The notes under the pieces are model-generated. The model was not told the origin of the DNA and ran no database searches. It saw only the letters and a list, made by a program, of their open reading frames with translations. Of a stretch of DNA of 64,000 nt, positions 14,315-25,141 are shown in pieces. This DNA is from Coriobacteriia bacterium. GTDB taxonomy: Bacteria; Actinomycetota; Coriobacteriia; Anaerosomatales; Anaerosomataceae. The stretch's first letter is position 1. Each line of letters begins with the position of its first letter. The DNA is taken from positions 244,254 through 308,253 of the forward strand of contig JAUSBK010000001.1 of NCBI GenBank assembly GCA_030652115.1. The letters run 5' to 3'. The position numbers and the translations under genes were made by a program.

Positions 14315-14788
14315 ATGCGCGTGCACAGTGTCACCGTGTGTCCCGACCGGGTCGACGTCATCGTGCGTGTCGACGCCCCGGAGGTGCTTCGGACTTCACA
14401 GTCGGCGGCCGTGGCCGAGCGAGCGCTCCGCATGCTGCCGGGTCTGGCCGACCATCGGTGTCACAACGATGACGACCTGACGTTCGCCGACGAGCTCGCC
14501 GACACCGAGGTACCGCACCTGTTCGAGCACGTGGTGCTCGAGCTCATGGCCGAGGCCGGCTCGCCCCGGAGTCTCAAAGGCGAGACCGAGTGGGACTTCA
14601 AGCGCGACGGGCGCGGGGTCTTCCGCGTGTCGCTCGAGTACGACGACGACCTCGTCTGTCTCGGGGCGATCAAGAGCGCGGGCACCCTCATGACGTACGT
14701 GCTCGAGGGCGGCGACCCGCCTGATGTACAGGCCGAGACCGGGCGTCTGGCCGGGCTCCGTGGATGGCCAGCCGGCGCTGCCTCGTGA
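14315..14788 (+). CDS. Stand-alone protein resembling the N-terminal domain of cyanophycin synthetase
   Basis: A 157-residue protein. The core HLFEHVVLELMAEAG followed by GVFRVSLEYDDDLVCLGAIKSA closely resembles the segment in cyanophycin synthetases that precedes the ATP-grasp domain (HLxEHxALELQ and then VxxEYxxE). The ATP-grasp and Mur-ligase domains are absent and the frame ends cleanly. It may be an accessory domain acting in trans or a relic. It sits just upstream of a T-box-controlled operon that itself contains an ATP-grasp ligase (Ddl). The match is by eye and function is unknown. Confidence 0.5.
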   Translation: MRVHSVTVCPDRVDVIVRVDAPEVLRTSQSAAVAERALRMLPGLADHRCHNDDDLTFADELADTEVPHLFEHVVLELMAEAGSPRSLKGETEWDFKRDGRGVFRVSLEYDDDLVCLGAIKSAGTLMTYVLEGGDPPDVQAETGRLAGLRGWPAGAAS

Positions 14789-14810: not shown

Positions 14811-14840
14811 TTGACCGGCTGCGAACGGCGGTGCTAAGGT
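14811..14840 (+). promoter_or_regulatory. Promoter of the T-box operon
   Basis: TTGACC (14811-14816) and TAAGGT (14835-14840) are separated by 18 bases. The transcript would begin near 14847, just before the first leader hairpin. Confidence 0.55.
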
Positions 14841-14846
14841 TGCCTG

Positions 14847-15076
14847 CAACCCCGCCAGCGGCGGGGGCCACAGCGCAGTGGACGTGAGGGAAGAGGGCAT
14901 CATCGGCCCGGCCACCCCTCCTCTAGGTCCTCCGCCAGTCCCGCTCCTGCGAGCGGGGGGAAGCGGACGGCATCGGGCCGTTACCCCGGACACGAGGTCC
15001 GGCGAGCGCACTCGAGCGTCGGACGAAGACAGGTGGTACCGCGACGACCCTCGCCCTGTCGGCAGGGTCGTTCTCT
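14847..15076 (+). ncRNA. T-box leader with intrinsic terminator
   Basis: The leader ends with the diagnostic T-box bulge TGGTACCGCG (15034-15043), immediately followed by a terminator: CGACCCT (15045-15051) pairs with AGGGTCG (15064-15070), then TTCTCT. Uncharged tRNA pairing of its NCCA end with TGGT would favour the antiterminator and switch on the downstream aminotransferase and ddl. TGGT implies a tRNA with discriminator base A, which argues against Asp, Asn, Trp and His. Upstream hairpins are visible, including a GGAC-GAGGG/CCCTC-GTCC stem at about 14880-14930 and a CCGGAC/GTCCGG stem near 14990. No canonical AGTA loop-E motif is seen, so the stem I looks reduced and I cannot assign the specifier codon with confidence. 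Confidence 0.85.
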
Positions 15077-15114
15077 GTTGTCCGGGAGCGTGACCAAGCG
15101 CCAGAGGAGCAGCG

Positions 15115-16389
15115 ATGGGTACCGCACGAGTGGTGTTCGACCGATGGAGCGGCCGCTACAGCAAACGCATGGCGGACGTGCGCTCGAGCGCCGTTCGCGA
15201 CCTGTTCGCAGCAGCCACCCGCCCCGACATGATCTCCTTCTCGGGCGGCATGCCCGAGATCCGCCGCGTTCCCATCGACTCGGTCATCGCCGCCACCACG
15301 GCCGCGCTGCGCCACTCGGGCACCGAGGCGCTGCAGTACGGCTCCTCGGAGGGCCGGGTACAGATCCGAGACGTCGTGGTGGGCCTCATGGGCGAGGTGG
15401 GCGTGCGCGTGAAGCACGACGACCTCGTCATCACGGCGGGCGCGCAGCAGGCACTCGACTTGCTTGCGAAGATCTTCATCGACCCGGGCGACACGATCAT
15501 CACCGAAGGTCCCACGTACCTCGGCGCGCTGCAGGCGTTTTCGGCATACCAGCCAAACATCGTGTGCATCCCAATGGATGCCGAGGGCATGCGCACCGAC
15601 CTGCTCGCCGCTGAGCTCGAGCGCCTCGGACCGCGCGGCGCCAAGTTCATCTACACGATCCCGAACTTCCAGAATCCGGCGGGCGTCACGCTCGCTCCTT
15701 CGCGCCGGCGCGAACTGCTCGACCTTGCGCGCCAGTACGACATCCCGGTGATCGAGGACGATCCGTACGGGCGGCTCCGGTTCGAGGGCGGACACGCGCT
15801 GCCGCTGCGCGCGCTTGACGACGACATCATCTACCTCGGCACGTTCTCGAAGATCTTCGCGCCGGGACTGCGTCTCGGCTGGGTCATCGCGCCGAGGCCG
15901 ATCCTCGCGAAGTTCCTGCTCGCCAAGCAGGCGGCCGACCTCTGCGGCAGCGCGTTCACGCAGACCTGCGCGGAGCGCTACTTTGCCGACACACGCTGGC
16001 GCAAGGTGCTGCAGGACCTCACGCACGCGTACACAGAGCGCCGCGACGCGATGATCGCCTCGCTCGAAGAGCACTTCCCGGCCGAGGCGAAGTGGACGGT
16101 CCCCGAGGGCGGCTTCTTCGTGTGGGTCGAGATGCCGTCGTTCCTCGATCTCAAGTCCGTGCTCGCCGAGGCGGTCGAGCGCGGCGTCACGTACGTGCCG
16201 GGCGACGCCTTCTTCCCCGACGGGCGCGGGCGCAACTGCATGCGCCTCGCGTTTTGCTACGTGGAGCCCGAGAGGATACGCGAGGGCATCGCGCGCCTCG
16301 CCGAGGTGCTGGAAGACCGTTTGGAACTCTACCGTGCGTTCGCGGCGGCAGGCGTGCTGCCGACGGCCGCTGTCGATGAGAGGGGCTGA
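15115..16389 (+). CDS. PLP-dependent aminotransferase (class I, Aro8/LysN-like)
   Basis: A 424-residue fold-type I enzyme. Features include MISFSGGMPEI near the N-terminus, QYGSSEGRVQIRDVV, ITAGAQQALDLLAKIF, YTIPNFQNPAGVTL (the N-x-P substrate/PLP element), VIEDDPYGRLRF, and the PLP-lysine motif GTFSKIFAPGLRLGW near residue 245. C-terminal GGFFVWVEMP is also conserved. Relatives act on 2-aminoadipate, aromatic, branched-chain or alanine substrates. It is the first gene after the T-box and lies five bases before ddl, so its amino acid product or substrate is presumably the T-box ligand. GAGGAGC precedes the ATG. Confidence 0.88.
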   Translation: MGTARVVFDRWSGRYSKRMADVRSSAVRDLFAAATRPDMISFSGGMPEIRRVPIDSVIAATTAALRHSGTEALQYGSSEGRVQIRDVVVGLMGEVGVRVKHDDLVITAGAQQALDLLAKIFIDPGDTIITEGPTYLGALQAFSAYQPNIVCIPMDAEGMRTDLLAAELERLGPRGAKFIYTIPNFQNPAGVTLAPSRRRELLDLARQYDIPVIEDDPYGRLRFEGGHALPLRALDDDIIYLGTFSKIFAPGLRLGWVIAPRPILAKFLLAKQAADLCGSAFTQTCAERYFADTRWRKVLQDLTHAYTERRDAMIASLEEHFPAEAKWTVPEGGFFVWVEMPSFLDLKSVLAEAVERGVTYVPGDAFFPDGRGRNCMRLAFCYVEPERIREGIARLAEVLEDRLELYRAFAAAGVLPTAAVDERG

Positions 16390-16393
16390 GGGC

Positions 16394-17344
16394 ATGAAGG
16401 AGAAGATCGCGGTGCTCATGGGCGGGCAGTCGCTCGAGCGTGAGGTCTCGCTCGTGAGCGGACAGCGCGTGTGCGACGCGCTCGAGGCCGAGGGCTACAA
16501 GGTTCTTGCTCTCGACGTGACGCCGGAACTCGTGACCACGCTCCGCAGCGAGAAGCCGGACGCTGTCTACATCGCGCTCCACGGCAAGTACGGCGAGGAC
16601 GGCACGGTGCAGGAGCTGCTCGAGTTTCTCGGCATCCCGTACACCGGCCCGGGTGTCGTAGCCTCCACGCTCGCCTGGGACAAGTCGCTCAGCAAGCGGC
16701 TGTTCCGGATCGAGGGCGTGCCCACGCCGGCGTGGGTGGCGTTCACCGCCGACGCCTTCAAGCAGATGGGCGCTGCCACGGCGCTCGACCTCGTGCCGGA
16801 CGCCGTGGGGGGCTTCCCGGTCGTCGTGAAGCCGTCGAAGCAGGGTTCCGCACTCGGCCTCACGAAGGTCGAGACTGCCGAGGCGCTGCCCGAGGCGCTG
16901 CTCACCGCACTCTCCTTCGGCGACACGGCGATTGTGGAGAAGTGGATCGACGGGCGCGAGCTCGCCGTCTCCGTGCTCGACGGGCCGGACGCTCCGCGCG
17001 TGCTGCCTCCGGTCGAAATGGTGCCGGTCTCGGGACTGTTCGACTTCTCGGCGATGTACACGCCGGGCGAGACCGAGTACTACGTGCCCGCACGGCTCTC
17101 CGAGACCGAGATGGCCGAGGTCGTGGCGCTCGCCGCCCGGGTGCACCAGCTGCTCGGGTGCCGGCATGTGAGCCGCGTGGACATGGTACTCGGTGCCGAC
17201 GGTGTCCCCTACGTTCTCGAAGCGAACACGTCACCGGGCATGACCGAGATGTCGCTTCTGCCCATGGCAGCGGCGGCCGTCGGCATCGACTTCCAGGAGT
17301 TGGTAGGACTTCTGGTACGCTCTGTACGACACGAAGGCGCGTGA
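16394..17344 (+). CDS. ddl: D-alanine--D-alanine ligase
   Basis: A 316-residue ATP-grasp ligase. It contains KIAVLMGGQSLEREVSLVSG at the start, VYIALHGKYGEDGTVQ, GIPYTGPGV, KPSKQGSALGLTKV for ATP binding, and the C-terminal metal-binding element PYVLEANTSPGMTEMSL. These are the standard Ddl motifs. The enzyme joins two D-alanines for peptidoglycan precursor synthesis in the cytosol. The gene is four bases after the aminotransferase stop and thus under the T-box, an unusual regulatory setting for ddl. The in-frame region upstream of ATG 16394 belongs to the aminotransferase gene in another frame. Confidence 0.93.
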   Translation: MKEKIAVLMGGQSLEREVSLVSGQRVCDALEAEGYKVLALDVTPELVTTLRSEKPDAVYIALHGKYGEDGTVQELLEFLGIPYTGPGVVASTLAWDKSLSKRLFRIEGVPTPAWVAFTADAFKQMGAATALDLVPDAVGGFPVVVKPSKQGSALGLTKVETAEALPEALLTALSFGDTAIVEKWIDGRELAVSVLDGPDAPRVLPPVEMVPVSGLFDFSAMYTPGETEYYVPARLSETEMAEVVALAARVHQLLGCRHVSRVDMVLGADGVPYVLEANTSPGMTEMSLLPMAAAAVGIDFQELVGLLVRSVRHEGA

Positions 17345-24849: not shown

Positions 24850-24898
24850 GCTGCGGCGTGCACCGCGTACGACGCGGCATCAGGCTCGCCGCACCGCT

Positions 24899-25099
24899 GC
24901 TCCGTCCCTCGTCTGCGGATTTGGCACTGTCCGACGTAGGGCACACGAGAATCTCGTGCGGCGAGGTTCCGCCTTTGCAGTCCCAGCCACGTTAGCCTTC
25001 CCCTTAAGCCGGGGAGGGCTGTTATACCCATTGGCGTCTCTCGACATTTCCGGGCAGTGGCCTGTGTTCGAACAGGAGCCGCACCGTAACAGATGGAGC
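24899..25099 (-). promoter_or_regulatory. M-box (ykoK) magnesium riboswitch
   Basis: Read on the minus strand, the leader contains GTTACGGTGCGGCTCCTG, CACTGCCCGGAAATGTCGA, GACGCCAATGGGTATAACAG and ACAGTGCCAAATCCGCAGACGA in that order. These match the M-box core blocks of the B. subtilis mgtE leader (GUUAGGUGAGGCUCCU, GCUGCCCAAAAAUGUCGA, GACGCCAAUGGGUCAACAG, ACAGUGCUAAAGCUCUACGA). The outer helix is formed by GCTCCATCTG and CAGA...GGAGC. Mg2+ binding to this aptamer normally favours termination. Of the 621 bases between the HAD gene and the mgtE-like gene, this leader accounts for most; the remainder (24672-24816) is untranslated leader ending in GGGAAGGAG before the start codon. Confidence 0.92.
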
Positions 25100-25141
25100 G
25101 CTCTTGTCGCTGTCAATGCGTCGAGCCGCGACGCACCTGCG

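Follow-up and report, generated by a model that had tools for sequence, protein, structure and literature searches.

A T-box leader with a short Stem I and a probable alanine specifier precedes an aminotransferase gene and ddl in Coriobacteriia

Results and Discussion

A T-box leader with its own promoter upstream of an aminotransferase gene and ddl

The stretch of Coriobacteriia DNA analysed here (64,000 nucleotides, referred to as the window) carries at positions 14878-15080 of the forward strand a T-box leader of the transcription-attenuating type, which has its own promoter and lies upstream of a gene for a PLP-dependent aminotransferase (AT) and ddl. Judged from the structure, the specifier register, the promoter, the terminator and the operon layout, all established by comparison of related sequences, this leader very probably governs the transcription of both genes in response to tRNA-Ala. 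An earlier note on this DNA had described a T-box over an aminotransferase-ddl pair with a reduced Stem I and no AGTA motif, and this description holds: bulge, terminator, AT and, four bases on, ddl are all in place, the leader is conserved, Stem I has a side-bulge form without an elbow module, and a motif check found no AGTA in the window leader. All leader features described below are on the forward strand.

The promoter (14811-14840) consists of a -35 box TTGACC (14811-14816), an 18-nt spacer and a -10 box TAAGGT (14835-14840). It was not called by a stricter promoter-consensus scan of the window, and the pattern TTGACC-N17/18-TANNNT was found by a pattern scan 5' of 55 of 56 related leaders. 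Position 14811, the start given in the earlier note, falls on the -35 box and the RNA starts downstream of it.

The reduced Stem I (14878-14930) is about 51 nt long in the window leader, and 97-100% of its cells are paired in the alignment, including those of the GAGGG/CCCUC helix (14886-14890/14916-14920). Compensatory changes were seen both in the basal helix (14880-14883/14927-14930) and in the apical helix (14895-14898/14906-14909, 4 bp in the window leader), which closes a loop at 14899-14905, and the sequence AAGA at 14891-14894 is kept in all 56 leaders. The predicted alanine specifier, GCC at 14911-14913, lies on the 3' side of Stem I, in a bulge that separates its two upper helices, and is followed by a purine, A14914. 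Stem II (14931-14967) has a lower helix (14931-14935/14963-14967) and an upper helix (14941-14946/14951-14956) with covariation, the first pair of the lower helix being CG in 43 and UA in 13 of the leaders. Its internal loop is CCAG / GGAAG, without AGUA, in the window leader and of the CCAG-type / GGAAG-type in 56/56. The Stem IIA/B pseudoknot (14968-14992) with the F-box CCGUUA (14978-14983) and a IIA helix CGG/CCG comes next, followed by Stem III (14997-15024), which is flanked by the purines GAG and GAAG and shows compensatory changes in 7/7 modelled pairs. AGTA was present in only 2 of the 56 leaders (L094 and L112), by eye outside the S-turn positions.

The antiterminator (15028-15060) is formed by helix A1, GACAGG (15028-15033) with CCUGUC (15055-15060), and helix A2, GCG (15041-15043) with CGC (15052-15054), and the variants GACAGG/CCUGUC, GAUAGG/CCUAUC and GAUUGG/CCAAUC occur in A1. 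The T-box bulge UGGUACC (15034-15040) could be read directly from the sequence, within GGTGGTACCGCG. Mutually exclusive with the antiterminator is an intrinsic terminator (15044-15080), partly detected by a terminator scan, with the arms ACGACCCT (15044-15051) and AGGGTCGT (15064-15071) followed by TCTCTGTTG, a T-poor tail in the window. A hairpin with a T-rich tail was present in 54/56 leaders, the two misses being L109 (contig end) and L028 (tail below the T count). A single-sequence fold of the whole leader mixed its domains and was rejected, and a pairing of Stem I with the antiterminator proposed by RNAalifold, both being conserved GC-rich parts, was set aside.

The leader is conserved and covaries across 56 genomes

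The Rfam T-box model RF00230 gave no match in the window, neither at gathering nor at E 10, nothing at the AT leader when the whole genome was scanned, and no match to any of the family's 26 AT leaders (27 family genomes, E 1e-4). The T-box motif alone is weak evidence above chance, with 15 copies of the exact sequence GGTGGNACCGCG in the 2.38 Mb genome, 5 of which coincide with the window leader or with RF00230 matches. A copy of GGTGGTACCGCG at C8:95256 (L042) had no recognisable leader around it and was discarded.

Of the 27 family genomes, 26 yielded the AT protein, and each of these loci has the leader, counting L022, which was missed by a stricter pattern. These 26 leaders served to build a covariance model (R1), with which 396 genomes of the class were searched. 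Strong matches, all of at least 96 bits, were obtained in the 26 family genomes and in 30 other genomes of the order, and the remaining matches reached at most 32 bits. Ten of the weak matches were examined and comprised six ordinary Met-type T-boxes, two pheS T-boxes, L125 and L129. L125 is the 3' half of the leader only, situated before AT, and is possibly a contig artefact. In L129 (G074:C55, 27700-27753) an internal deletion fuses Stem I to the terminator in front of AT and ddl, and this may be a copy that in nature is permanently off or rewired, or else the deletion may stem from misassembly.

The hand-drawn structure was examined for covariation in the 56 strong matches. With an alignment fitted to the covariance model, 98.1% of the pair cells were standard pairs and changes on both sides of a pair occurred in 213 cells, whereas shuffles gave 52.8 and slid structures 6-39; a separate alignment (A2), not fitted to the model, had 98.5% paired and 54 both-side changes compared to 16.5. 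For the pseudoknot helix IIB the longest helix had a mean of 5.15 bp in the 55 leaders covered (one of the 56 was not matched by the pattern), compared to 4.34 bp when partners were swapped (sd 0.08, max 4.62). Given that the leader is conserved, with covariation, across 56 genomes, it is more than a chance motif, and comparative analysis confirms it as a genuine conserved element. A pattern scan of GTDB contigs returned 43 leader loci, with AT next in 41 and the contig ending before AT in the other two. These loci were labelled Coriobacteriia, Coriobacteriales/Coriobacteriaceae, Actinobacteria and Actinomycetes/Actinomycetota, with one Anaerosomatales, one Slackia and one Aeromicrobium; they overlap with the 56 leaders (many are from the same genomes) and were not counted as independent.

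The aminotransferase-ddl pair

AT (15115-16389, +) encodes a class I/II PLP aminotransferase of LysN / multiple-substrate aminotransferase-like type (Pfam Aminotran_1_2 above cut-off) and ddl (16394-17344, +) encodes a D-alanine--D-alanine ligase (NCBIfam PRK01372, 340 bits with a cut-off of 243; Pfam Dala_Dala_lig_N/C). The ATG of ddl at 16394 comes four bases after the AT stop codon (16387-16389). Wherever the contig continues, the leader is upstream of the same AT in all 56 genomes: AT is present at 55/56 loci (L109 ends before AT) and ddl at 50/56. At four of the six loci without ddl the contig breaks off (L031, L108, L109 and L118), and at the two uncut loci, L097 and L115, leader and AT are followed by 832 and 2724 nt, respectively, with no ddl match. 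In another family of the class, 13 close relatives of AT (56-61% identical) were examined; all 13 are followed by ddl and show no T-box motif upstream, the upstream region of one of them (L189) being largely masked. This indicates that the pairing of AT with ddl is independent of the T-box. A stand-alone protein resembling the N-terminal domain of cyanophycin synthetase (PF18921) is encoded at 14315-14788 of the window, adjoining AT-ddl, and a gene of this kind was found 5' of AT at 11/13 of the loci without a T-box and at 32/56 of the T-box loci, many of which are cut short upstream.

The sequence context suggests that AT probably makes or handles L-alanine. The same genome has a separate ilvE and an alr, and its best match to alanine dehydrogenase scores better as PntA; given these genes, sensing of tRNA-Ala over AT and ddl would be sensible if AT supplies L-alanine. 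An aminotransferase of broad or other specificity that belongs to an alanine regulon only by way of ddl is the strongest alternative, though we consider it unlikely. The nearest solved relatives of AT, which differ in substrate range, include LysN, PH0207, kynurenine aminotransferases and multiple-substrate aminotransferases, and AT reached no NCBIfam equivalog cut-off among the families shown, both of which favour another substrate. Against it, one of these nearest relatives is an alanine-glyoxylate transaminase, an alanine T-box directly precedes AT in two bacterial classes (see below), and the leader stays with AT at the two loci that lack an adjacent ddl.

These two loci, on the other hand, favour a leader that in practice controls AT only, with ddl transcribed from a promoter of its own and the link to the cell wall incidental, as do the existence of the pair without a T-box in another family and the distances above 900 nt that separate AT from ddl at 7/30 loci of the second class. 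We find such an arrangement improbable in the order of the window, where all 50 measurable AT-ddl pairs are no more than 85 nt apart (spacing -55 to +85, median -1, stop and start mostly overlapping; the value of -55, in L116, stems from a partial ddl match). A separate promoter or terminator isolating ddl had been named in the earlier note as an observation that would speak against joint control; a consensus scan of the window reported neither a terminator nor a promoter-like site between the leader and ddl. The note's proposal that ddl is coupled to tRNA charging is supported in that a T-box heads the AT-ddl pair, and has to be limited in that AT and ddl are also linked where the T-box is absent.

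The specifier is placed at an invariant GCC

Covariance modelling had been suggested in the earlier note as the way to the specifier. RF00230 was blank, as described above, and GCC was arrived at by R1 together with a register rule derived from the ordinary T-boxes of the family, according to which the specifier is the triplet directly 5' of a purine and CC (XYZ-R-CC). The rule was tested on 34 loci (5 from the same genome and 29 from the family), where a T-box was found in 31, the pattern in 28 and a single match in 27. All 27 single-match T-boxes conformed, with TGG at trpE (11/11), ATC at ileS (4/4), CTC/CTG at ilvD (8/8) and ATG in the remaining 4/4, and in 23/27 the amino acid was backed by NCBIfam gene calls, the control genes being named from one NCBIfam-scanned member per protein cluster. 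The four controls that read ATG precede a TIGR03287-like gene, which scores below the TIGR03287 cut-off and presumably has a role in methionine metabolism. Among the exceptions, L239 had two candidates, L005, L242 and L262 had none, and L004, L238 and L247 were not parsed.

Class I T-boxes with a Met codon (ATG) before a TIGR03287-like protein and then a ferredoxin-like ORF (named by eye) were seen at L001, L124, L126-L128, L130 and L131, an arrangement that is recurrent in the order and might mark a methionine-pathway gene.

In the AT leader the rule places the specifier exactly at GCC 14911-14913. This triplet is invariant in 56/56 leaders, with a purine before it and A (55 leaders) or G (one leader) after it, and it stays constant while the apical loop varies. 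We infer that the ligand of the window T-box is tRNA-Ala, because GCC is invariant, stands in the register of the controls and is also read in a second class. The genome has tRNA-Ala genes with the anticodons GGC, UGC and CGC, all three with A73, in line with the earlier note, which had listed alanine among the amino acids that fit a discriminator A. Its statement that TGGT demands this base went too far: the trpE T-box of the same genome (L002, C7:65557-65827) has TGGT and the discriminator of tRNA-Trp is G73, with TGGC in the relatives L240 and L241. Discriminator matching was for this reason set aside, and it was not relied on for excluding Gly, Ser and His registers. Nor does GCC point to an amino acid unrelated to the two enzymes, as the note had allowed for; of all amino acids, alanine stands closest to ddl.

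An ordinary alanine T-box upstream of AT and ddl in a second class

In G692, a genome from another class of the phylum, an R1 match of 35 bits turned out to be an ordinary T-box with a long Stem I and AGTA, located before the same kind of AT. AT was found in 34/36 genomes of this second class. Among the 30 AT loci examined (those returned by the search), ddl was downstream on the same strand in 30/30, within 304 nt in 23, and a T-box was present at 20/30, 16 of which read GCC by the register rule. Alanine T-boxes over AT-ddl thus occur outside the order of the window as well. Of the four T-boxes without GCC by the rule, L276 and L281 have no GAA motif (L276 reads GCC-G-CCC by eye and L281 is without that segment), L285 has no specifier segment and L286, a decayed-looking copy, reads ACC. 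At these four loci, and likewise at L280 and L287, the T-box before AT-ddl has varied, decayed or been deleted, which suggests that the switch is frequently lost in the second class.

The short form of the window and the long class I form (RF00230; L269 and others in the second class) share the F-box pseudoknot, Stem III, the T-box bulge, the antiterminator/terminator switch, GCC in the same register and the same genes, whereas the distal Stem I arm and the AGUA S-turn are absent from the window form. GGGAAGAGGGC of the short form is the counterpart of GGGAAGAGTA in the long form. From this likeness the short form may be derived from the long alanine T-box by trimming, the direction of change being our interpretation.

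The comparison with the second class also bears on other readings of the specifier. Invariance of GCC would by itself be compatible with a proline specifier, CCA, one base to the right; CCA is kept in 55/56 leaders, L117 reads CCG, also a Pro codon, and tRNA-Pro(UGG) has A73. A proline T-box is nevertheless very improbable, as CCA is out of register with the 27/27 single-match controls and with the 16 second-class T-boxes, where GCC is followed by A or G, violates the preference for a 3'-C in specifiers (PMC7583486), and has no link through proline to AT-ddl. Our initial idea of an isoleucine T-box with an AUH specifier in the apical loop, like that of class III ileS T-boxes (part of PMC10482949 places their specifier there), had in its favour AUC, AUU or AUA in the apical arm of the window leader (loop reading AUC) and of 40/56 leaders and the A73 of tRNA-Ile, and was ruled out to the point of being scarcely credible by the apical loops across the order, variable in length, without an Ile codon in 16/56 leaders and reading AUG in L010, and by an ordinary ileS T-box reading ATC (L003) and a separate ilvE in the same genome and GCC upstream of the same AT in the second class.

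Relation to described T-box classes

With GCC as the predicted specifier, the leader has the hallmarks of the T-box family: a UGGNACC bulge in an antiterminator that excludes a terminator, an alanine specifier that fits the genes, and a tRNA-Ala(GGC) whose A73 complements UGGN. Four T-box classes are described in PMC10482949. The long Stem I with an AGUA specifier-loop S-turn and a distal IDTM that characterizes class I was not found, and AGTA is absent in 54/56 leaders. The outline of class IV, an intermediate Stem I without IDTM and with the specifier in a side bulge between two helices (PMC10482949, in part), was found, and we call the leader class IV-like and not a class IV member. Compared by description and not by alignment, the class IV ileS type of Actinomyces odontolyticus and the present leader have in common the intermediate Stem I without the elbow-binding IDTM, Stem II and IIA/B; they differ in that the specifier here is GCC (Ala) and not Ile, the genes are AT and ddl and not ileS, expression would be controlled by a terminator and not by a sequestered start site, and no AGUA is present at the Stem I and Stem II S-turns (PMC10482949, in part). 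Control of translation initiation is what class IV 'mostly' uses, and the hairpin and T-rich tail in 54/56 leaders depart from it; because PMC10482949 says 'mostly', we regard this trait as a difference and not as an exclusion. The Stem II S-turn (AGUA/GAA) of classes III and IV, as defined in PMC4695836, was found in 0/56 leaders. Loss of this S-turn has a precedent, since one alaS Stem II without a loop E motif is reported there (PMC4695836, in part).

What appears new here is a short-Stem-I T-box variant with an unusual, sensible target, and no priority is claimed. The alaS T-boxes of Bacillus and Clostridium have a long Stem I, unlike the window leader. They share with it tRNA-Ala, UGGU and transcription attenuation, and differ in having a GCU specifier and controlling alaS (PMC4695836). 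Searches of the open-licence PMC literature, a scope outside which some of the main T-box reviews and papers fall, showed neither a T-box upstream of ddl nor an aminotransferase under an alanine T-box. No ddl T-box was mentioned in the passages on ddl and alanine of PMC2494555, PMC7778990 and PMC3766115, or in those on alanine of PMC1262725.

Proposed regulation by tRNA-Ala

We infer tRNA binding, switching and an effect on peptidoglycan, along with the substrate of AT, from the features described above. RNA polymerase would start at the promoter at 14811-14840 and the anticodon of tRNA-Ala(GGC) would pair with GCC 14911-14913 in the short Stem I. The ACCA end of uncharged tRNA-Ala would then pair with UGGU (15034-15037) and hold the antiterminator, so that AT and ddl are transcribed, whereas with charged tRNA-Ala the terminator (15044-15071) would form. 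A shortage of alanine is thus expected to give more AT and more Ddl, and the bacterium probably ties the supply of cell-wall precursors to its alanine status.

A broader reading, for and against which we see about equal reason, is that the leader represents a T-box class with an architecture of its own. It would sense tRNA-Ala with a Stem I of about 51 nt, lacking AGUA S-turns in both Stem I and Stem II as well as any contact with the tRNA elbow; it would have been trimmed from the ordinary alanine T-box of the same operon and would set both alanine-linked transamination and D-Ala-D-Ala synthesis, such that tRNA charging would gate peptidoglycan precursors. If true, a core peptidoglycan enzyme would be under direct control by tRNA charging, and the leader would be a naturally occurring minimal T-box able to do without motifs considered central to the recognition of tRNA. 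Its long counterpart upstream of AT and ddl in the second class makes a natural pair with it for structural comparison, and the alanine specifier provides a lead on the role of AT, an aminotransferase with no other assignment. More transcriptional T-boxes with a short Stem I may be hidden, given that RF00230 misses the window form.

Another riboswitch was seen elsewhere in the window, on the reverse strand at 24898-25100, where an M-box magnesium riboswitch (RF00380, 125.9 bits) is located 5' of an MgtE-like ORF (24671-22794). An NRAMP-like transporter ORF (22790-21540) starts three bases after the MgtE-like ORF, both genes being named by eye.
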